Assembly: GCA_022614805.1 (NCBI GenBank)
Contig: JAKEHY010000022.1
Coordinates: 23,864 to 87,863, forward strand
Length of the DNA stretch: 64,000 bases
Source: Candidatus Zixiibacteriota bacterium
GTDB lineage: Bacteria; Zixibacteria; MSB-5A5; DSPP01
Direction of reading: 5' to 3'
Shown piece by piece: positions 6,400-64,000 of the stretch. The position numbers and the translations under genes were made by a program. Below the pieces are notes generated by a model, which did no database searches, was not told the origin of the DNA, and saw only the letters and a list, made by a program, of their open reading frames with translations. Positions within the stretch are counted from its first letter, which is position 1, and each line of letters opens with the position of its first letter.

Positions 6400-7170
6400 G
6401 TGGCGACCCGAAAACAAAAGAAAGTGCTTCGTCAAGCTCTTTTCAAGAAAACCCGCAAAAAGGCAAATTTCTTCGTGGTGGAAGGGGAACGCCACCTTTC
6501 CGAGCTTTTGCAGAGCGACTGGAAAATCCTTAAAATCTTCGCTACGCCGCAAAAAGCGAAAAAAATAAAATCGCTGATTCCCTTGGAAAGCGCCGCGGAA
6601 GTGGAAGAAATCTCCTCGAAGAAATTGACTGAACTGGCCCAAACCGAAACCCCGTCCGGCGTTTTGGCGCTGGTGGAAAAGCGAAGCTTTGCGTTGGATG
6701 CGGTGGCGGCCGAAAAAAGGGTTCTGATTTTGGACAACCTGCGCGACCCGGGCAACGTCGGCACGCTCTTGCGCACGGCCCGTTCACTCGGCTGGAGCGG
6801 GGTCGTGCTATTGAAAGGCACCGTCGAACTGTATTCTCCCAAAGTCGTCCGCTCCACCGCCGGCGCCCTGTTTCACCTGAAAATTGTCGAAGGCATCACC
6901 GCCGGAGAAACCCTAAACATCCTTAAAAAAGTTGGTTTCACCGTTTGGGTTGCCGATTCCCATTCCGGCGTTCCTCCGGAAGCGTGTAGGGGTTTGATTA
7001 ATCAAACCCCTACAAAATTGGCCCTGGTCATCGGCAGCGAAGCTTCCGGCGTGTCACAAGCGCTGTTGTCCCAAGCGGACCAATTCGTCAGAATCCCTCT
7101 TTCCGAAGGGGCGGAAAGCCTGAACGCCTCCGTCTCCGGCGGAATTTTGATGTGCCTGTTGCGAACGTAA
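6400..7170 (+). CDS. TrmH/SpoU-family RNA 2'-O-methyltransferase
   Basis: This 256-residue protein is a SPOUT enzyme that transfers a methyl group from S-adenosylmethionine to a ribose 2'-OH in rRNA or tRNA. An N-terminal substrate-binding domain (about 5-95) precedes the three SPOUT motifs: LRDPGNVGTLLRTARSLG (about 112-130), LALVIGSEASGVS (about 206-218) and IPLSEGAESLNASVSGG (about 232-248). Residues about 196-205 (RGLINQTPT region) are encoded by a perfect palindrome that also occurs in an intergenic region of this window; relatives lack this segment, so it looks like an in-frame repeat insertion. The start is GTG; a TATATT box (6388-6393) lies 6 bases before it, suggesting a leaderless message. 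Whether it is RlmB, TrmH or another subclass cannot be told. Confidence 0.85.
   Translation: MATRKQKKVLRQALFKKTRKKANFFVVEGERHLSELLQSDWKILKIFATPQKAKKIKSLIPLESAAEVEEISSKKLTELAQTETPSGVLALVEKRSFALDAVAAEKRVLILDNLRDPGNVGTLLRTARSLGWSGVVLLKGTVELYSPKVVRSTAGALFHLKIVEGITAGETLNILKKVGFTVWVADSHSGVPPEACRGLINQTPTKLALVIGSEASGVSQALLSQADQFVRIPLSEGAESLNASVSGGILMCLLRT
6985..7014. repeat. Perfect 30-bp palindrome inside trmH-like gene (GTAGGGG family)
   Basis: The arm TGTAGGGGTTTGATT is followed directly by its exact reverse complement. The inner 28 bases are identical to an intergenic copy at 53599-53626. Of the three frames only one is free of stops, and that is the frame used by the host gene. Confidence 0.95.
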
Positions 7171-15288: not shown

Positions 15289-17646
15289 ATGCAACAAGAT
15301 ATACGAGGAAAACCGGCGCTAACGATACTTCTCATCCTGCTGTCAGCTTCACCCGGCTTTGCCTTCCAGCCGCTTTTTGACACTTGGATGAGCTATGATG
15401 TAGGGAGTAGTCCTTACTATACCTGCGCGGCCGATTTGGACGGGGACGGGGACCCGGATTTGGCCGTGGCAATTAGTGGCAGCCACTCCGTTTCAATCTT
15501 GAAGAACAGCGGGGACGGGACTCTTGCCGCCAAAGTTGACTACGGAACCGGGGGCGGCCCTCGCTTTGTTTTTGCTTCCGATTTGGATGGGGACGGGGAT
15601 TCGGATTTGGCCGTGGCGAATTATGGCAGCAAAAACGTCTCGGTCTTGAAAAACAACGGGGACGGGACTTTTGCCGCCAAAGTTGACTATGGAACCGGAG
15701 GTGGCCCTACCTCCGTTTTCTCCGCCGATTTGGACGGGGACGGCGATGGGGATTTGGCCGTTGCGAATTACGATAGCAACACCATCTCGGTCTTGAAAAA
15801 CAACGGGGACGGGACTTTTTCCCCCAAGATTGATTACGGGCTCGGGGGCCACCCCCTCTCTGTTATCGCCTCCGATTTGGACGGGGACGGGGATTTAGAT
15901 TTGGCCGAGGTGAACGACCGCGGCCTCACCGTTTTTGACGACAGCGTCTCGGTCTTGAAAAACAACGGCGATGGGACTTTTGCTCCCAAGATTAAATACG
16001 GAACCGGGAGCGGCCCTTCCTCCGTCTTTGCCTCCGATTTGGATGGGGACGGAGATTCGGATCTGGCCGTGGCGAATTTTAACGGCAACAGCGTCTCGGT
16101 CTTAAAAAATAACGGCGACGGGACTTTTGCCGCCAGGCGCGACTACGGGGCAGGGAGAGGCCCGCGCTCCGTTTTTGCCTCCGACTTGGATGGGGACGGG
16201 GATTTGGATCTGGCCGTGGCAAATTTTACCAGCAACACCATCTCGGTTTTGAAAAACATCGGAGACGGCACTTTTGCCGCCAAATTTGACTATGGAACCG
16301 GGGGAGGCCCGCGCTCCGTTTTTGCCTCCGATTTGGACAGGGACGGGGATTTGGATTTGGCCGTGGCGAATTTTAACAGCAACAGCGTCTCGGCTCTGAA
16401 GAACAACGGGGACGGGACTCTTGCCGTCAACGATGACTACGGGGTGGGAAGCGGCCCTACCTCCGTATTAGCCTCCGATTTGGACGGGGACGGGGATGGC
16501 GACTTGGCCGTGGTCAATCAGGGCGGCAGCAACGTATCGGTCCTGAAGAACAACGGGGACGGGGCTTTTGGCGCCAAGTTTGACTACGGCGTGGGAAACT
16601 TCCCGAGCGACGTCTTCGCCTCCGATTTGGACGGGGACGGGGATGGTGACCTGGCCGTGGCCAATCAGGGCGGCAGCAACGTATCGGTCCTGAAGAACAA
16701 CGGGGACGGAACTTTCGCCGCCAAAGTTGACTACGGCGTGGGAAGTTTCCCGAGTGACATCTTCGCCTCCGATTTGGACGGCGACGGGGATTGGGATTTG
16801 GCCGTGGCCAATCTGGCAGGCAACACCGTGTCGGTCTTGAAGAACAACGGGGACGGGACTTTTGCCGCCAACGATGAATACGGTGTAGGAAGCGGTCCTA
16901 TTTCTGTTTTTGCCTCCGATTTGGATGGAGATGGGGACCGGGATTTGGCCGTGGCAAATTACATCAACAACACCGTCTCGGTATCGAAAAACAACGGGGA
17001 CGGAACTTTCGCCGCCAAACTTGACTACGGAGCCGGGTTAAGCCCCATCTCTGTTTTTGCCTCCGATTTGGACGGCGACGGAGATCGGGATTTGGCCGTG
17101 GGAAACGTTGATGGCGACAACATTTCGGTTTTGGAAAACAACGGGGACGGAACTTTCGCCGCCAAACTTGACTACGGAACCGGGTTAAGCCCCACCTCCG
17201 TTTTTGCCTCCGATTTGGACGGGGACGGAGATCAGGATTTAGTCGTAGCAAACAGTAAAGCCAGCGCCGTCTCGGTCTTGGAGAACAAAGGGGACGGAAC
17301 TTTTGCCGTCAAGGTTGACTACGGAACCGGGTTAAGCCCTACCTCCGTTTTTGCCTCCGATTTGGACGGGGACGGGGACCGGGATTTGGTTGTGACAAAG
17401 ACTAATAGCGACACAGTTTCGGTTTTAAGAAACCTGTCTGATATCTGCGCAATCGATAGAGGAGACATGAATGACGACGGCGGCTTGTCGCTGACGGATA
17501 TAGTCATAATGTTAAACTGCGTGTTTCTGGAAGAGGGAAACTGCGGCCCCTGCTTGGCCGACGTCAACTGCAGCGCGAACTTGTCTGCGGCTGATGTCGT
17601 GTGGGAAATTTACGCCGTGTTCTCGAAAATTCCATTTCCATGCTGA
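15289..17646 (+). CDS. Secreted FG-GAP/VCBS repeat protein with C-terminal dockerin domain
   Basis: This 785-residue exported protein has a signal peptide (about 1-25, LTILLILLSASPGFAF). It then carries fourteen tandem repeats of about 49 residues with consensus VFASDLDGDGD.DLAVAN and SVLKNNGDGTFAAK.DYG, the calcium-binding FG-GAP/VCBS motif that folds as integrin-like beta-propeller blades. Unit 3 is longer by five residues. The C-terminus (about 725-785) is a type I dockerin: GDMNDDGGLSLTDIVIMLN and DVNCSANLSAADVVWEI, two Ca-binding loops followed by helices. Such proteins are common at the surface of FCB-group bacteria. Fourteen blades would suit two seven-bladed propellers (inference). 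No operon partner is evident; two further dockerin proteins lie 1-5 kb downstream. Confidence 0.9.
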   Translation: MQQDIRGKPALTILLILLSASPGFAFQPLFDTWMSYDVGSSPYYTCAADLDGDGDPDLAVAISGSHSVSILKNSGDGTLAAKVDYGTGGGPRFVFASDLDGDGDSDLAVANYGSKNVSVLKNNGDGTFAAKVDYGTGGGPTSVFSADLDGDGDGDLAVANYDSNTISVLKNNGDGTFSPKIDYGLGGHPLSVIASDLDGDGDLDLAEVNDRGLTVFDDSVSVLKNNGDGTFAPKIKYGTGSGPSSVFASDLDGDGDSDLAVANFNGNSVSVLKNNGDGTFAARRDYGAGRGPRSVFASDLDGDGDLDLAVANFTSNTISVLKNIGDGTFAAKFDYGTGGGPRSVFASDLDRDGDLDLAVANFNSNSVSALKNNGDGTLAVNDDYGVGSGPTSVLASDLDGDGDGDLAVVNQGGSNVSVLKNNGDGAFGAKFDYGVGNFPSDVFASDLDGDGDGDLAVANQGGSNVSVLKNNGDGTFAAKVDYGVGSFPSDIFASDLDGDGDWDLAVANLAGNTVSVLKNNGDGTFAANDEYGVGSGPISVFASDLDGDGDRDLAVANYINNTVSVSKNNGDGTFAAKLDYGAGLSPISVFASDLDGDGDRDLAVGNVDGDNISVLENNGDGTFAAKLDYGTGLSPTSVFASDLDGDGDQDLVVANSKASAVSVLENKGDGTFAVKVDYGTGLSPTSVFASDLDGDGDRDLVVTKTNSDTVSVLRNLSDICAIDRGDMNDDGGLSLTDIVIMLNCVFLEEGNCGPCLADVNCSANLSAADVVWEIYAVFSKIPFPC
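15424..17433 (+). repeat. Fourteen tandem ~147-bp repeats within the FG-GAP gene
   Basis: The units are in frame and average 147 bp (49 codons). Neighbouring copies are very similar at DNA level; for example the two consecutive units around 16500-16740 both encode NQGGSNVSVLKNNGDG. This indicates recent unit duplication or conversion. Confidence 0.9.
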
Positions 17647-37918: not shown

Positions 37919-37981
37919 CTCCTGTCCCCCTTGACAAGGGGGACAGACCCCGACTCACAGTCGGGGTCAGGGGGTCTAAGA
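37919..37981. repeat. CCCCCTT..AAGGGGG..AGGGGGT family repeat
   Basis: CTGTCCCCCTT-GAC-AAGGGGGACAG is followed by CCCCGACT-cac-AGTCGGGG and a CAGGGGGT tail: two hairpins in a row, matching the layout of copies at 55562, 57945 and 58569. Confidence 0.8.
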
Positions 37982-46225: not shown

Positions 46226-46897
46226 CTACTCCACTCGCCGATAGAGCCGCTTTGTCCGGATATACCGCTCCACCCCCTCCGGAACCAGGTAGCGGACGCT
46301 CTGCCCGACCCGAATGCGCCGACGCAAATCGGTGGATGAAATTTCCAGCCGGGGATTGGAAAGCCAGTAGGCACGCTCCATCCAGACGGGGACTTTTTCA
46401 CTTGTTCCGAGCGTTGTCGAGGAATCCGTCCGGGGGCGGTGGGCAAAGACCGGCGTGGCCATTGAAAAAACTTTTTCCGGCTCCTTCCAGGAGCGCAGTT
46501 CCGATAAATTGTCCGACCCCAAAAGCAGGAAAAACCGGGTCTTCGGATGTTTTTTTCGCAAAAGCGGCAAAGTCTCCACCGTGTAGGAAACCCCTCCCTT
46601 TTCTTTTTCGATGGTCAAAACCTTGAAACGGGGATTTACCAAAACGGCCAGCCGAACCATCTCCAGCCGGTGCCGGAAAGAAGTTATCCGCCGTCCCTGT
46701 TTGTGGGGCGGCCGCAAAGCGGGGAGAAACCAGACCTCGTCTAATTTTAATTCCTCCAGGGCGCTTTGGGCCAAAACGAGATGGGCCTGGTGGGGCGGGT
46801 CGAAAGTCCCTCCCAAAAGCCCGATTTTGTTGAAAACCCCGAGCGACTTGTCCCGGCTGAAATGGAGGGAAGCCGGGGGGCGGCGGGCTTTGGGCAT
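46226..46897 (-). CDS. nadD: Nicotinate-nucleotide adenylyltransferase containing two repeat-derived segments
   Basis: The 223-residue enzyme makes nicotinate adenine dinucleotide in NAD synthesis. The nucleotidyltransferase motif is IGLLGGTFDPPHQAHL (about 25-40, H-x-x-H), with LGSDNLSEL and the C-terminal LEISSTDLRRRIR (ISSTxxR). About 24 residues precede the first strand where relatives have 2-4; these (ASLHFSRDKS) are encoded by a copy of the CCCGAGCG.AGTCGAGGG repeat. A second copy encodes SSTTLGTSEK in the variable middle. The ATG directly follows the bamD stop (TAAATG), so the extension appears translated. It ends the ftsK-lolA-SLT-bamD operon. Confidence 0.9.
   Translation of the reverse strand: MPKARRPPASLHFSRDKSLGVFNKIGLLGGTFDPPHQAHLVLAQSALEELKLDEVWFLPALRPPHKQGRRITSFRHRLEMVRLAVLVNPRFKVLTIEKEKGGVSYTVETLPLLRKKHPKTRFFLLLGSDNLSELRSWKEPEKVFSMATPVFAHRPRTDSSTTLGTSEKVPVWMERAYWLSNPRLEISSTDLRRRIRVGQSVRYLVPEGVERYIRTKRLYRRVE
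46401..46425. repeat. CCCGAGCG.AGTCGAGGG-type repeat inside nadD
   Basis: CTTGTTCCGAGCGTTGTCGA compares with CTTGTCCCGAGCGAAGTCGA at 55595 and 58637 (17 of 20 by eye), in frame within the gene. Confidence 0.65.
46844..46872. repeat. Second repeat copy encoding the nadD N-terminal extension
   Basis: Compared with the 29-base element at 58633-58661 about 24 positions match, including CGACTTGTCCCG and GAGGGAAG. In the nadD frame it reads ASLHFSRDKS; the intergenic copies in the same frame read ASLDFARDKS. Confidence 0.65.
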
Positions 46898-53502: not shown

Positions 53503-53598
53503 TTTCTCCTCCATATTCGCATTTCAAAACGACAAAAACGAAAATTACCCAATCGGTGCCAAATCCGCAAGCCCGCCAATTGCCTTTAAAATGTCTTT

Positions 53599-53626
53599 GT
53601 AGGGGTTTGATTAATCAAACCCCTAC
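53599..53626. repeat. GTAGGGG-family palindrome identical to the one inside trmH
   Basis: GTAGGGGTTTGATT followed by its reverse complement; all 28 bases equal 6986-7013, about 46.6 kb away. Confidence 0.95.
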
Positions 53627-53630
53627 TAAA

Positions 53631-54464
53631 TTAATAATTAAAAACCTGGTCCAGCTTCCCCTGTTTCCGGGCGATGTATTCAATCCCGCGGTTGATAAGA
53701 ACCGAAAGAACAATCGAGAGAAGGGTGGTCATTGCCAAAATCAAAAGCAGTTTTTCATCCGACCAGGAAGCAAAAATTTTTGAAACCGGCTCCGCCATCA
53801 TCCCTCTTCTTAACGCTTCTAACCAATAAGTGATGGGAAAAGCGAGTGCTGCCGGCTCCATCCAGTCCGGCAGAACCTCGATGGGAAAAACCGCCCCGGA
53901 AACGAGGTAGAAAACCCCCGCCGTCCCCTCGGTCATAAAAAATCCGTGCCGCGCCGTCAACAACGTCAACGAAGCGAGGGCGATTCCCAAAGCAATCGTG
54001 GCGATGATGCCCAAAGGAAAACTCAAAATCATAAGCGGCCAATGCCCGAAGACAAGCTTGAGGTCGAAAATCCACACCCCCATAACCACCGTGACGATTA
54101 CCGCAAGTGTGGTGATGACGAGCTTGGGGATGCACCGTCCCAGCATATAAAAGTAGGTGACAATGGGGGCGAGATAGATGTACTTCAACATCTCGTACCG
54201 CTCCCTGTCCTCGTGGATGACAATGCCCACCCCCGCCAAAACGTTGGCCGTGTACATAAAGAAAGCGTTACCCAAATAGATGTAAGCGAACAATGCCGTC
54301 GAGATTTGCCCGCCCGCGACCACTTTGTACATCAGAACGAGAATCAAAGTGGAAAAAATCGGCCGAGTGATGGCGTAGGCGATGAAGGTGAACGGCTCCG
54401 CCCAGTTCGCCTCAATCTGCCAGCCCAGCCATCCGGCCGTCTTTATAGTCCGCCAAAGACCCAT
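53631..54464 (-). CDS. ABC-2 type transporter permease (second)
   Basis: The 277-residue protein has six membrane helices in the ABC-2 pattern: a cytoplasmic N-terminal helix (WRTIKTAGWLGWQIEANWAE), membrane segments from about 27, and the conserved YLVSGAVFPIEVLPDWMEPA loop between helices 5 and 6. ABC-2 permeases export drugs, lipids or polysaccharide. GAGGGG precedes the ATG. It probably pairs with the permease gene upstream as a heterodimer driven by the ATPase at 55874; a composite repeat separates the two permease genes. The substrate is unknown. Confidence 0.85.
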   Translation of the reverse strand: MGLWRTIKTAGWLGWQIEANWAEPFTFIAYAITRPIFSTLILVLMYKVVAGGQISTALFAYIYLGNAFFMYTANVLAGVGIVIHEDRERYEMLKYIYLAPIVTYFYMLGRCIPKLVITTLAVIVTVVMGVWIFDLKLVFGHWPLMILSFPLGIIATIALGIALASLTLLTARHGFFMTEGTAGVFYLVSGAVFPIEVLPDWMEPAALAFPITYWLEALRRGMMAEPVSKIFASWSDEKLLLILAMTTLLSIVLSVLINRGIEYIARKQGKLDQVFNY

Positions 54465-55528: not shown

Positions 55529-55632
55529 GTAGAGGCAGACCTCCGTGTCTGCCCTGTCTTTTCTGTCCCCCTTACCAAGGGGGACGAGGTCCGACTTGTC
55601 CCGAGCGAAGTCGAGGGAAGCACCGGAGGGGG
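55529..55632. repeat. GTAGAGG palindrome followed by CCCCCTT..AAGGGGG element with inserted CCCGAGCG repeat
   Basis: GTAGAGGCAGAC...GTCTGCCC (55529-55554), then CTGTCCCCCTTACC-AAGGGGGACGAGG (55560-55586), in which CGACTTGTCCCGAGCGAAGT...GAGGGAAG is nested before the CCGGAGGGGGT end. Confidence 0.85.
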
Positions 55633-55638
55633 TGTTTC

Positions 55639-57196: not shown

Positions 57197-57880
57197 ATGA
57201 GTTCTGATAACGAAAAAATTAAATGGACAGATAAGGCTTCCGTAGCTCTATCATTTTCTGCACTTCTTTCATCCATATGTGTGGCTTGGATCGCTTTAAA
57301 CCTCACTTGTAGCCAACAAAAATGGCAAGAAACAATCAGACGGAATGAAATCGCGCCAGACATTCAATTATCAGCGGAAACAGGACTTGACCAGAAAACA
57401 CTTGAGCGAGCAACTATAGTTTTTGAAAACATCGGACGAGGCACCGCCCAAAATATAATGGTCTGGATCAGATATTTAGATACTATCAGAATTGCGGTAA
57501 TTCAGGAGTTTATTCCACTAAACGGGGGGCCAGAGCAAAACTATATTAAACCAAATGAAAAATTGAAATTCTTTGTTGACTTAGTCAATATCTTGGGGGA
57601 AGAATATCCTAAGAAAACCCTGAATGAAAAAATAGAAATTGTACCCCGTTTAAGTTGGACTTTCTATTTTTCTTACTTCGATATTGACGGAAACGAAAAA
57701 CTGTTAGTTACAACGGTTAATCCCGCCGGAATTGGTGCAGGAATCATACTCCACACAGGCGCAGAAACACTCGACTCAATCTTTCTATCACTGCCTCCCT
57801 CACGGAAGCATATTTATGAAGAGAAAGACATCGATATAAGAGATGAATTTGGTTTGGTTAAAAAGGAACTAATTGAATAA
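57197..57880 (+). CDS. AT-rich hypothetical membrane-anchored protein
   Basis: The 227-residue protein has one membrane helix near the N-terminus (about 16-36, VALSFSALLSSICVAWIALN) and an extracytoplasmic or cytoplasmic beta-rich domain (about 55-200). I recognise no family. The gene is markedly AT-rich relative to its neighbours, uses codons such as ATA and AGA often, and is bordered by repeat clusters, all signs of an acquired gene. Similar single-helix proteins of unknown function are common in accessory islands. The ribosome site (AGATAGAAG) is weak. Confidence 0.6.
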   Translation: MSSDNEKIKWTDKASVALSFSALLSSICVAWIALNLTCSQQKWQETIRRNEIAPDIQLSAETGLDQKTLERATIVFENIGRGTAQNIMVWIRYLDTIRIAVIQEFIPLNGGPEQNYIKPNEKLKFFVDLVNILGEEYPKKTLNEKIEIVPRLSWTFYFSYFDIDGNEKLLVTTVNPAGIGAGIILHTGAETLDSIFLSLPPSRKHIYEEKDIDIRDEFGLVKKELIE

Positions 57881-57944
57881 TCAACTATTTTTGTTAAAGA
57901 ACTTAAATATTCCGCTTACTCCACCACCCCCGACAGCCTAAATC

Positions 57945-58003
57945 ACCCCCTCCGGCCTTTCAGGCCTCGTCCCCCTTGTCAAAGGGGACAAAAAAAACAA
58001 AAC
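57945..58003. repeat. Outer left inverted repeat around the DUF559 gene
   Basis: ACCCCCTCCGGCC...GGCCTCGTCCCCCTTGTC and AAAGGGGACA-A7-CAAAAC. Its reverse complement matches 58569-58674 apart from nested insertions. Confidence 0.75.
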
Positions 58004-58046
58004 GCTCTTCTGTCCCCTTGTGTTTAAGAGGGACGGCAGGGGGTAA
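58004..58046. repeat. CCCCTT..AAGAGGGA..AGGGGGT repeat, middle copy
   Basis: CTGTCCCCTTGTGTTTAAGA-GGGACGGCAGGGGGT; same family as the flanking inverted repeats and in the same orientation as 58049-58086. Confidence 0.7.
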
Positions 58047-58048
58047 CG

Positions 58049-58086
58049 ATTTTGTCCCCCTGTACTTAAGGGGGACTATAGGGGGT
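58049..58086. repeat. Inner left inverted repeat (38 bp) of the DUF559 unit
   Basis: ATTTTGTCCCCCTGT-ac-TTAAGGGGGACTATAGGGGG-T; matches the reverse complement of 58528-58565 at 36 of 38 positions. Confidence 0.9.
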
Positions 58087-58134
58087 TGTTCGCCCCTTGA
58101 TAAATGAGAGTTGCGGAAGATATATTTCGCACGA

Positions 58135-58548
58135 ATGACCAAAATCTACAACAAGTCCGCCGAGAAACAGAAACGAAGCCGGCTTCGAAATCAAATGTCG
58201 CCGGCAGAAGCCATTCTCTGGTCGAAGCTTTCGAAAAGGCAGGTTTTGGGATTTAAGTTCCGCCGTCAATACGGCGTCGGGTCGTATGTTTTGGATTTCT
58301 TCTGCCCGGACGCAAAATTGGCGATTGAGGTTGACGGCGACAGCCACTTTCAAGAAGATGCCGCCGAATACGATGGAAAAAGGCAGGCCGCCATTGAAAA
58401 ATTGGGAATCCATTTTTTGCGGTTCACCAATCAGGAAATTCGTAAAAATCTTTTTGACGTCCTGAAAACGATAACGGAGACGGTTGGAAAAACCGGAAAA
58501 CAGGCGGGGCGGAAAGCGAGGCAAAACACCCCCTATAGTCCCCCTTAA
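58135..58548 (+). CDS. DUF559 (Vsr/MutH-like PD-(D/E)XK) endonuclease-like protein inside inverted repeats
   Basis: The 137-residue protein is a DUF559 member, related to very-short-patch-repair endonucleases. Key blocks are QMSPAEAILWSKLSKRQVLG, FKFRRQYGVGSYVLDFFCPD (catalytic Asp), KLAIEVDGDSHFQ (E-x-D core) and LGIHFLRFTNQEIRKN. The last residues (TPYSPP-stop) are encoded by the inner right inverted repeat. The 480-bp core lies between near-identical 38-bp inverted repeats, nested in larger ones, like a mobile unit. The start could be ATG 58135 or TTG 58111. DNA cleavage specificity is unknown. Confidence 0.85.
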   Translation: MTKIYNKSAEKQKRSRLRNQMSPAEAILWSKLSKRQVLGFKFRRQYGVGSYVLDFFCPDAKLAIEVDGDSHFQEDAAEYDGKRQAAIEKLGIHFLRFTNQEIRKNLFDVLKTITETVGKTGKQAGRKARQNTPYSPP

Positions 58549-58565
58549 ACACAGGGGGACAAAAT
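58528..58565. repeat. Inner right inverted repeat (38 bp) of the DUF559 unit
   Basis: ACCCCCTATAGTCCCCCTTA and ACACAGGGGGACAAAAT; contains the TAA stop (58546-58548) of the DUF559 gene. Confidence 0.9.
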
Positions 58566-58568
58566 ATT

Positions 58569-58674
58569 GTTTTGTTTTTCTGTCCCCCTTAACAAGCCTG
58601 CCCCGAGCATAGCCGAGGGAGGGGACGAGGCCCGACTTGTCCCGAGCGAAGTCGAGGGAAGGGTCGGAGGGGGT
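58569..58674. repeat. Outer right inverted repeat with two nested insertions
   Basis: GTTTTGTTTTTCTGTCCCCC...GGGGACGAGGCC...GGAGGGGGT matches the reverse complement of 57945-58003, but CCTGCCCCGAGCATAGCCGA and CGACTTGTCCCGAGCGAAGT type elements are inserted. Confidence 0.75.
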
Positions 58675-61985: not shown

Positions 61986-64000
61986 CTATCGCTCGGTTTC
62001 GGCCATTTCGGAGGAGGCGCTCTTCAAGACGATGTTTTTCAATTCGTCGATTTGCTTTTGCTGTTTCAGGATGATTTCCTGAAGCCCTTCCAGCGTTTGG
62101 GCCACCGTGGAAGGATTGCTCCGCACGAAGTTGCCGAAGAGGACCGAGATTTTCTTGTGCTTGCGCCCGCCAACCATCTCGTTAACGGCTGACCAATCCA
62201 CCGCCTCCGCTGCCCGGGCCACAATGTGGCCGATGGGATATTTTCCCTCATCATCCTTCATCGCGTGACCGGGAGTGGAGGAGGAAATCAAATAATCGCC
62301 GGGCTGGATGTTTTGGCCTTCATCCACGACCCACATATCGCCGTTGCCAACGGCCATAACCAAGTGCGGATTTTCCGGGCCGGCCGGTTTAGACGGCTCT
62401 CCGAGCGCAAGATAGGAACCGAGGCAAGCTGGGTCGTTGGGAATACTTGAACGCTTAACCCCGTAGATAATTTCCGATTTGGGATTATCGTGCGAGTTCC
62501 GGTTAAAGCCGGTGAGCGAGACCAGTTCCCCCCGCTCTATTGCTTCCTCCGTCCAGCCGTAGTGCGAACCGGTGAAGGCATTGTAGGAGACAGTTGTACC
62601 TGAAACTGAAATGTTTCCTTCATTAACGCCATCTTGATAAAGACCTACTATGGGGCCATCGCTGGTAGTCCGGTTAAAACCGGCGGCATTAAAACCAGGA
62701 GCTTCGACGGCCAAGCGACCGAGTATAGTGTTGGTCGTTCCGATGCCGACAGTGCCTTCAACCAAAAGGCCGTTGGCCGGAGCCGCACTGGTTCCGGAGT
62801 AACCGGCACCGATGGCGGCTCCGCCTTCCACATCTAACTTGTTCGCGGGGCTGCTCGTCCCGAGGCCGACATTGCCTGAACTAGTGATGTGTACCCTGTC
62901 GAGACCTGCCGTGCCCAATCGCAGGGCATCGGTCGCATTGCTGTAGTTTATGTAACCGGCATACGCACTGGCGTTGTCGCCGAAGCTTATACGTCCGCTA
63001 CCAGCCGTGCCCCCGATAACATTGACGGAGGCGATATCCACGGATGCGGCGTTGTTGTTGACCACCAGCCCTTCGTTAAGCAAATCGCCCGGCAGTCCTT
63101 GGCCGCTTCCTCTGTTGACGTGCAGCCTGGCCGATGGGCCGGTCGTTCCGATGCCGACGTCGCCAGTGCTTGAGATGTGCATCCTATTGAGACCTCCCGT
63201 GCCAACTTGCATTGCATCGGTTGCGTTACTGTATGCAACATAACCGGCATACGCACTGGCGTTGTCGCCGAAGCTTATGCGGCCGCTTCCGGCAGTGCCC
63301 CCGATAACATTGACGGAGGCGATATCCACGGATGCGGCGTTGTTGTTGACCACCAGCCCTTCGTCAAGCAAATCGCCCGGCAGCCCTTGGCCGCTTCCTC
63401 TGTTGACCTGTAGTTTGGCCGATGGGGCGTTTGTCCCGATGCCGACGTTGCCGTTCACATCGTTGATAAACATCCGGGTCGTTCCGGTTGGGGCTTGTAA
63501 CGTGAGCGGGCTGTTACTGGAGAGAAAGTTGGAAAAAACCGTGTCCCCTTTGATGCTTCCGACTACTTCCAGTTTTTTGTTGGGGCCAGTGGTTCCGATA
63601 CCGACATTGCCGTTGTTGGCGACCGATAATCTTACCTGCGCCGCCGTCCGCAAACTTATTGTTCCGGACGGCCTGTTATTTCCGATTGTCATGTTGCTGC
63701 CGCCGCCAGGGCCGGCGACTACAATGTGTGCAGTCCCATCACCAAAACTTATCCGCTCCTGGGCCGCTGCTCCGGCATTAGGATTTTCAATTGTTATGCC
63801 TACGCCGGCGTTTGCATCCCTGTAAAGGTGAAGCAGGTTGTTTGGTAGAGCGGTTCCTATGCCCACACTGTCGCCACTGTTGTTCAGGCGAACAAAGTTG
63901 CCGTCATCCGTCCAGCCGCTGGGGGTGGCCCCTTGGTCAACGGCCGTAACCACCGAGCCGTCCTGATTGATGGCCCTGATGAATGAGCCGGGTGCCGCGA
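61986..64000 (-). CDS. Partial: tail-fibre/adhesin-like repeat protein with coiled-coil C-terminus
   Basis: At least 671 residues; the 5' end lies beyond the window (the frame is open to 64000: APGSFIRAINQDGSVVTAVD). It holds six VGIGT..P...L.V motifs, the beta-prism-like repeat of phage tail spikes and bacterial surface fibres. Two 96-residue units (NRGSGQGLPGDLL, VNNNAASVDIASVNVIGGTA) are almost identical. After SHYGWTEEAIERGELVSLTG comes a domain that vaguely resembles autoproteolytic tail-spike chaperone domains, then a coiled coil (LEGLQEIILKQQKQIDELKN). A strong terminator follows. Probably secreted and trimeric (inference). Confidence 0.75.
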   Translation of the reverse strand, partial: AAPGSFIRAINQDGSVVTAVDQGATPSGWTDDGNFVRLNNSGDSVGIGTALPNNLLHLYRDANAGVGITIENPNAGAAAQERISFGDGTAHIVVAGPGGGSNMTIGNNRPSGTISLRTAAQVRLSVANNGNVGIGTTGPNKKLEVVGSIKGDTVFSNFLSSNSPLTLQAPTGTTRMFINDVNGNVGIGTNAPSAKLQVNRGSGQGLPGDLLDEGLVVNNNAASVDIASVNVIGGTAGSGRISFGDNASAYAGYVAYSNATDAMQVGTGGLNRMHISSTGDVGIGTTGPSARLHVNRGSGQGLPGDLLNEGLVVNNNAASVDIASVNVIGGTAGSGRISFGDNASAYAGYINYSNATDALRLGTAGLDRVHITSSGNVGLGTSSPANKLDVEGGAAIGAGYSGTSAAPANGLLVEGTVGIGTTNTILGRLAVEAPGFNAAGFNRTTSDGPIVGLYQDGVNEGNISVSGTTVSYNAFTGSHYGWTEEAIERGELVSLTGFNRNSHDNPKSEIIYGVKRSSIPNDPACLGSYLALGEPSKPAGPENPHLVMAVGNGDMWVVDEGQNIQPGDYLISSSTPGHAMKDDEGKYPIGHIVARAAEAVDWSAVNEMVGGRKHKKISVLFGNFVRSNPSTVAQTLEGLQEIILKQQKQIDELKNIVLKSASSEMAETER
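62866..63441 (-). repeat. Two 288-bp tandem copies inside the tail-fibre-like gene
   Basis: The copies are offset by exactly 288 bases (for example TAACCGGCATACGCACTGGC at 62953 and 63241). A central stretch of about 110 bases is nearly identical while the ends differ, which suggests gene conversion between units. Confidence 0.9.

Follow-up and report, generated by a model that had tools for sequence, protein, structure and literature searches.

Does a short nuclease gene that lies between nested inverted repeats form a mobile unit together with those repeats? The question is raised by a locus in a stretch of 64,000 nucleotides from a Candidatus Zixiibacteriota bacterium (the whole of this stretch is referred to as the window), in which a gene for a DUF559 protein is enclosed by two pairs of such repeats. 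DUF559 is a very common nuclease family and, to our knowledge, no role has been agreed for it. A sequence-only reading of the locus had proposed that the gene and its repeats stand in a relation like that of REP sequences and their RAYT transposase. This proposal is supported by the repeats that flank DUF559 genes in many phyla, by the way repeat copy number tracks the gene and by the existence of element-free sites. The reading that we favour, with reasonable though not strong confidence, is of a mobile unit similar in operation to REP/RAYT, in which the enzyme is a homing-type nuclease and the repeats are triplex-forming, its recognition, cutting and repair steps being inferred.

Organization of the element

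The DUF559 gene (58111-58548, + strand) encodes 145 residues from a TTG start, with an alternative ATG at 58135, and is surrounded by repeat units in the order <U1 U2> U3> gene <U4 U5>. The inner left unit, U3 (58049-58086, + strand), consists of the hairpin CCCCCTGTACTTAAGGGGG and a foot, TAGGGGGT; its purine arm AAGGGGG and its foot GGGGGTT obey the triplex mirror rule described below. The inner right unit, U4 (58528-58565, - strand), is an inverted copy of U3 that matches it at 36 of 38 positions, as the sequence-only reading had stated, and the further claim that this repeat supplies the end of the gene holds as well, since the C-terminal residues TPYSPP and the TAA stop codon (58546-58548) are both encoded within U4. 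When extended, the U3/U4 pair covers 46 nt at 89% and is the strongest inverted pair of the window. Outside it, U1 (57945-57993, - strand) is formed from a foot, a GGCC hairpin and a GTCCCCCTT/AAAGGGGAC hairpin and is of the same class as the dispersed solo copies. U2 (58008-58044, + strand), with the hairpin GTCCCCTT..AAGAGGGAC and the foot CAGGGGGT, lies head to head with U1. The outer right unit, U5 (58575-58674, + strand, the start being approximate), again belongs to the U1 class. The larger enclosing pair that had been reported is real and its left unit is intact, but the right unit is less tidy than described, as a foreign palindrome (CCCGAGC..GTCGAGGG) breaks it twice, at about 58597-58620 and 58634-58661.

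Most copies of the repeat are solo and far from the gene. The core palindrome, GTCCCCCTTnnnAAGGGGGAC, occurs in the window's genome in 14 exact copies and six with one mismatch. The two solo copies reported at 37919 and 55560 were found again. The first (placed here at 37923-37976, + strand) has no gene and contains a hairpin, a second hairpin, ACCCCGACTcacAGTCGGGGT, and the foot CAGGGGGT; in the other (55560-55633, + strand) the foreign palindrome of U5 is inserted between hairpin and foot. The genome also contains another DUF559 gene, whose flanking inverted repeats (CACCTCATCCCCGGCCCTTCTCC..GGAGAAGGG) differ in sequence from those described above.

A second dispersed palindrome, CTTCCCTCGACTTCGCTCGGGACAAGT, is found repeatedly between hairpin and foot, both in the window (58597-58661, 55580-55620 and 46832-46885) and among the compared loci, where five cases were recorded. 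Members of one repeat family are here nested, as insertions, inside units of another. An open reading frame of 227 residues without a Pfam match (57197-57880) adjoins the element. Elsewhere in the window a perfect palindrome, GTAGGGGTTTGATTAATCAAACCCCTAC, occurs twice in almost the same form at a distance of 46.6 kb (6985-7019 and 53598-53632). There are also at least 12 tandem copies of a 147-nt unit with 65-83% identity (15339-17417), probably a repeat protein, and two 288-nt direct repeats side by side that are 86% identical (62848-63423).

The encoded nuclease

In a profile search the window protein matched only the DUF559 (PF04480, 102.8 bits) and MTES_1575 families, and no transposase domain was found in the unit. 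Its structure was predicted with a pLDDT of 85.7. The solved structures closest to this model are NGO0050, a gonococcal DUF559 protein (Z 17.3), I-Bth0305I (Z 13.2), which also gave a profile match (E 5.8e-5), and Vsr (Z 11). Residues E33, D62, H79 and D88 are invariant in 40 homologues and form, in that order, the EDxHD set, beside which lies a basic set (R26, K49, R52, R91 and R104; 40 sequences). On the evidence of the predicted model, the window protein is a PD-(D/E)XK nuclease with the Vsr/EDxHD homing-endonuclease fold, and its catalytic residues are conserved. DUF559 has been named as an EDxHD homing-endonuclease family in a single sentence (PMC9403480). Caulobacter VsrA, the only DUF559 protein with a functional study, was read there as a Vsr-like mismatch-repair enzyme (PMC12907096).

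Association of DUF559 genes with inverted repeats

The arrangement is not confined to the window. Flanking inverted repeats were counted as strong at a score of at least 15 in a set of 79 loci from species genomes, with 77 testable genes, which covers Cyanobacteriota, Chloroflexota, Pseudomonadota, Planctomycetota, Bacteroidota, Spirochaetota, Patescibacteria and others. Strong repeats flank 66% of the 77 DUF559 genes; for 2,176 sliding control positions within these loci the figure is 0.46%. An independent, profile-sampled set from the cyanobacterial phylum gave 80% of 40 genes, compared with 2.5% when the outer flanks of those genes were scored instead. In the window's phylum PF04480 is present in 28 of 110 genomes, and strong inverted repeats flank the gene at about 16 of 24 good loci. 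About a third of the DUF559 genes in the 77-gene multi-phylum set have no recognisable flanking repeats. Several genomes are multi-copy, with repeat types that differ between the gene copies (Brevundimonas has 7-9 copies).

The sequence-only reading had named what would refute it, namely DUF559 genes of relatives without the repeats and repeats distributed independently of the gene; the outcome was the opposite, as most genomes in many phyla have inverted hairpin repeats around the gene and repeat copy number follows its presence in two phyla (see below). The reading had expected CCCCCTT..AAGGGGG to be the flanking repeat. That sequence proved to be one class among several, and the conserved feature is instead a hairpin with a mirror-image foot. 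Repeats of a strength equal to those of the window occur at 0.5% of control positions, so they are not fortuitous. Chance or an annotation artefact, for which only the low complexity of G/C-rich hairpins could be argued, is scarcely conceivable, being ruled out by the sliding-position and outer-flank controls and by shuffles. That gene and repeats constitute one evolved unit can be held with high confidence.

The mirror-image foot of the repeats

The units differ in sequence and share an anatomy, in which a purine hairpin is followed downstream by a G-rich foot, with a second hairpin between the two in some classes. The foot mirrors the purine arm of the hairpin, with A read as either A or T. 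Examples are AGAGGGG and GGGGTGT, AAGGAGGGGG and GGGGGTGGTT, GGGCGGAGA and AGAGGCGGG, and in the window AAGGGGG and GGGGGTT. This is the rule for a foot that folds back as a third strand, giving an intrastrand purine-motif triplex (G*G, A*A or T*A). The rule was observed to be met perfectly by 84% of 58 units, compared with 21% when the flank of another locus was substituted and 1.1% after shuffling (p 9e-11), and was replicated in a second set (p 3e-6). In the same phylum as this second set, repeats that flank RAYT genes failed the rule, although only seven units were available. The ability to form the fold is thus kept across divergent elements, which argues that the fold itself matters.

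Two other descriptions of the repeats were discarded. A foot that is a direct copy of the arm was beaten by the mirror image by 29 to 4 in asymmetric arms, and no Rfam match near threshold was found that would make the repeat a known RNA family.

Co-occurrence of gene and repeats

One hairpin class, CCCTCTCC..GGAGAGGG (pattern CCCTCTCCn2-10GGAGAGGG), was counted genome by genome. Among the 110 genomes of the window's phylum, the median was 14 copies in those with a strong DUF559 gene (n=23) and 0 in those without (n=87); at least two copies were present in 18/23 and 16/87, respectively (Fisher p 1.5e-7). Among 117 genomes of the cyanobacterial phylum the medians were 6 with the gene (n=60) and 0 without it (n=57), and at least five copies were present in 33/60 and 5/57 (Fisher p 5e-8). 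Neither test was corrected for phylogeny. In both phyla, then, repeat copy number follows the presence of the gene (Fisher p about 1e-7 each). The repeats of the 16/87 gene-less genomes can be due to loss or to incomplete assembly, and can also be a sign of independence. In Xanthomonas the gene occupies one conserved locus in 16 of 20 genomes. Two small genomes that lack it there have two flank matches only and no repeat copy, whereas the others have 23-103 matches.

These counts bear on the possibility that another enzyme, either RAYT or the host replication and repair machinery, spreads the repeats, with DUF559 as mere cargo between repeats that are hot spots of insertion or recombination. 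This is unlikely, though it retains some weight: some genomes without DUF559 have the repeats, the Y1 transposase (RAYT, PF01797) is nearly universal in the window's phylum (99/110 genomes), and the insertion history given below resembles recombinational replacement more than clean transposition. The association is nevertheless specific to DUF559, given its rarity at other positions in the same loci, and the RAYTs of the same genomes have different hairpins, for which the mirror rule failed. Repeat counts are explained by the presence of DUF559 and cannot be accounted for by that of RAYT, because RAYT is almost constant. With so even a distribution and with unrelated hairpins, RAYT was rejected as the mobiliser, and a unit made of DUF559 and its repeats remains the preferred reading.

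When repeat class was mapped onto the protein tree, the classes clustered overall (27 changes compared with 36.8 after shuffling, 0/200), but the window's own class did not (7 changes compared with 6.8). The specificity of enzyme for repeat is therefore weak, and it is also confounded by host kinship; no claim of protein-repeat co-evolution is made.

Sites with and without the element

The sequence-only reading had proposed a search for empty sites in close strains, and element-free sites were observed in Planktothrix, in Shinella and in the window's own genus. In Planktothrix rubescens the element lies in frame inside a DNA-methylase gene, which forms an open frame of 1,208 residues. The methylase gene of a sister genome is uninterrupted (959 residues in the stretch read), and the junction differs by about 13 codons. 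In Sinorhizobium the element is bounded on each side by a complete 131-bp head-to-head repeat pair ending TGCCCCTCACCC..GGGTGAGGGGCA. The entire unit is absent from the corresponding site in Shinella, where divergence of the flanks blurs the comparison. At the syntenic site of a genome of the window's own genus there is an intact gene of 318 residues, which we take to be DUF4350-like in the absence of a profile hit. The window has in its place the element and the last nine codons of that gene (57911-57938, - strand; 96% match to G006:C23:13737-13764). As only these codons are left, the left edge of the element can be placed at 57939-57945, at U1.

No clean target-site duplication was seen at the element-free sites of Planktothrix and Sinorhizobium/Shinella. 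At the Planktothrix and same-genus sites the local DNA was partly replaced, so that neither is a clean insertion. Insertion with replacement of local DNA fits break repair and not a clean transposase. An empty site in Xanthomonas was set aside, its intergenic DNA being too diverged for the edges to be placed.

The same sites can be set against a quite different role, in which DUF559, as a repair nuclease of the Vsr or SbcCD type, clears hairpin or triplex DNA and is needed by repeat-rich genomes. The Vsr-like fold would suit such a role, as would the action of Caulobacter VsrA in a DNA-damage context (PMC12907096). A repair gene, however, need not sit inside inverted copies of its substrate in genome after genome, need not reach the copy numbers seen in Brevundimonas and need not be inserted in frame in another gene, and this role appears very improbable beside that of a mobile unit.

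In many cyanobacteria (eight genomes recorded besides P. rubescens), DUF559 domains were also noted within long open frames of 1,000-1,500 residues. In the case that was checked, the insertion is in frame and the recipient is a gene for a DUF1156-type adenine methylase; DUF559 is also found near DUF1156/DUF499 genes on plasmids of Synechocystis and PCC 7002. Such repeated capture by one kind of DNA-modification gene may not be chance. The 131-bp head-to-head pairs of Sinorhizobium, recorded at three loci, have 12-bp perfect inverted ends and may, we presume, be the old RIME elements of rhizobia.

The PIT/TMECO repeats and ycjD of Escherichia coli

One of the classes that flank DUF559 genes is the TMECO/PIT repeat, CCCTCTCCC-loop-GGGAGAGGG-NNN-GGGTGAGGG. 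This repeat has 23 copies in E. coli K-12 and is present in more than 260 bacterial genomes; it forms a triplex in vitro and was tied to local instability, no stable triplex was found in E. coli cells, and no mobility gene was found by the authors (Holder et al. 2015; PMC4666352). The sole DUF559 gene of E. coli K-12 is ycjD. TMECO no. 9 (1,351,204-1,351,239; PMC4666352 Table 1) lies 168 bp from ycjD, and a degenerate copy overlaps its 3' end. The gene is one of presence or absence, its locus being present in 3,333 of 5,375 genomes. In the examined genomes without ycjD an efflux operon takes its place, reported as eefRABCD and as lost at least twice in ycjD-bearing lineages (PMC12817139); strains that lack ycjD consequently do not offer a clean empty site. 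Separately, a 92-bp stretch with a TMECO copy between perfect 8-bp direct repeats (AACCGTGT) is found at pstB-pstA of E. coli and is missing from many strains (L253, L255). The 8-bp repeat is a candidate target-site duplication, or the absence may be a slippage deletion.

A short gene with hairpins on either side could also be no more than an expression cassette, in which the hairpins merely terminate transcription or protect the mRNA of a selfish nuclease gene, and a set of 100 palindrome copies in Enterobacter 638 was guessed by its authors to be terminators (PMC2869309). Earlier tests, however, found neither promoter nor terminator activity for PIT/TMECO (cited by PMC4666352), the mirror match of foot to arm would be useless in a terminator, and the copies are mostly solo and distant from the gene. 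Very little credence can be given to such a cassette, and mobility of the unit is again preferred.

A possible mechanism of spread

In the mechanism that is envisaged, the G-rich foot of each unit would fold back as a third strand, either directly or past a second hairpin. The nuclease would most likely recognise the folded repeat when it is single-stranded, as on the lagging-strand template, and would cut at or beside it. During repair of the break, repeat units, or at times the gene with a repeat on either side, might then be copied or captured at new sites, where part of the local DNA would often be replaced. The solo and paired repeats would be non-autonomous offspring, as REPs are of RAYTs. 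The enzyme would thus act as a hydrolytic homing-type nuclease and not as a transposase. A nuclease of the DUF559 kind cuts, and we know of no strand-transfer chemistry for it, from which it is inferred that spread must run via repair. Repeat recognition, cutting of the repeat and break repair as the route of spread are all inferences. In the absence of cutting or binding data, it is somewhat probable that the nuclease drives the spread of the repeats. That it reads the triplex fold, for which there are likewise no binding data, is a tentative suggestion that could well prove wrong. Action of the nuclease on the repeat, with reading of this fold, would nevertheless be the most parsimonious account. 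Recurrence of the association in many bacterial phyla suggests that DUF559 is the long-missing partner that spreads common triplex-forming repeats. The broadest form of the proposal, that DUF559 with intrastrand-triplex repeats is a bacteria-wide, RAYT-independent mobile class whose enzyme reads the triplex, and that YcjD mobilises PIT/TMECO, remains conjectural, although it deserves serious consideration.

Comparison with known systems

The unit differs from a DDE insertion sequence or MITE in having neither a transposase domain nor a clean target-site duplication. A homing endonuclease spreads only its own gene, to a single allelic site, and the action of Vsr is bound up with Dcm methylation and the nicking of mismatches. 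By fold, the closest functional relatives are the EDxHD homing endonucleases (I-Bth0305I; Taylor et al. 2011), with which E, D, H and D are conserved, but the DUF559 gene is flanked by dispersed inverted repeats with tens of solo copies. Vsr is similar in fold, and both Caulobacter VsrA (PMC12907096) and E. coli YcjD are DUF559 proteins; no repeats have been described for any of the three.

What spreads triplex-forming G/C-rich repeats, which are linked to genome instability, was unknown (PMC4666352). TMECO/PIT is one of the DUF559-flanking classes and meets the same criterion of a hairpin purine arm with a mirror third strand, but no gene had previously been linked to it. Within those parts of the literature on DUF559, ycjD, repeat sequences and intrastrand triplexes that were available, no link between DUF559 and the repeats was found. 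The repeat and the nuclease fold were known separately; the link to DUF559 and the repeat classes other than TMECO/PIT are new here. Joining repeat and nuclease gives each a function, and E. coli K-12, in which one gene (ycjD) and 23 mapped repeats are available, allows that function to be tested.

The REP/RAYT system (GTAG REPs, REPtrons and REPINs; PMC3733652, PMC8266576) is similar in its short palindromic repeats dispersed singly and as head-to-head pairs, in its one protein gene per unit between inverted repeats and in its non-autonomous copies throughout the host. It differs in its enzyme, since a RAYT is a Y1 HUH transposase (PF01797), a criterion not met by the PD-(D/E)XK/EDxHD nuclease of the window. 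Moreover, the DUF559 units listed carry no GTAG tag, and their repeats combine a hairpin with a mirror foot, a rule that is broken by RAYT repeats of the same phylum. The CGTC REPs, for which no transposase is said to exist (PMC3733652), differ in their stem, with A/T first pairs and a CCA tail, and were not equated with the DUF559 repeats. If the proposal is correct, YcjD would explain the origin of the PIT/TMECO repeats, unexplained since their description, and DUF559 would be a candidate nuclease family that recognises intrastrand triplex DNA. The units would then represent a second REP-like system beside RAYT, one that differs from it in enzyme chemistry and in DNA fold.
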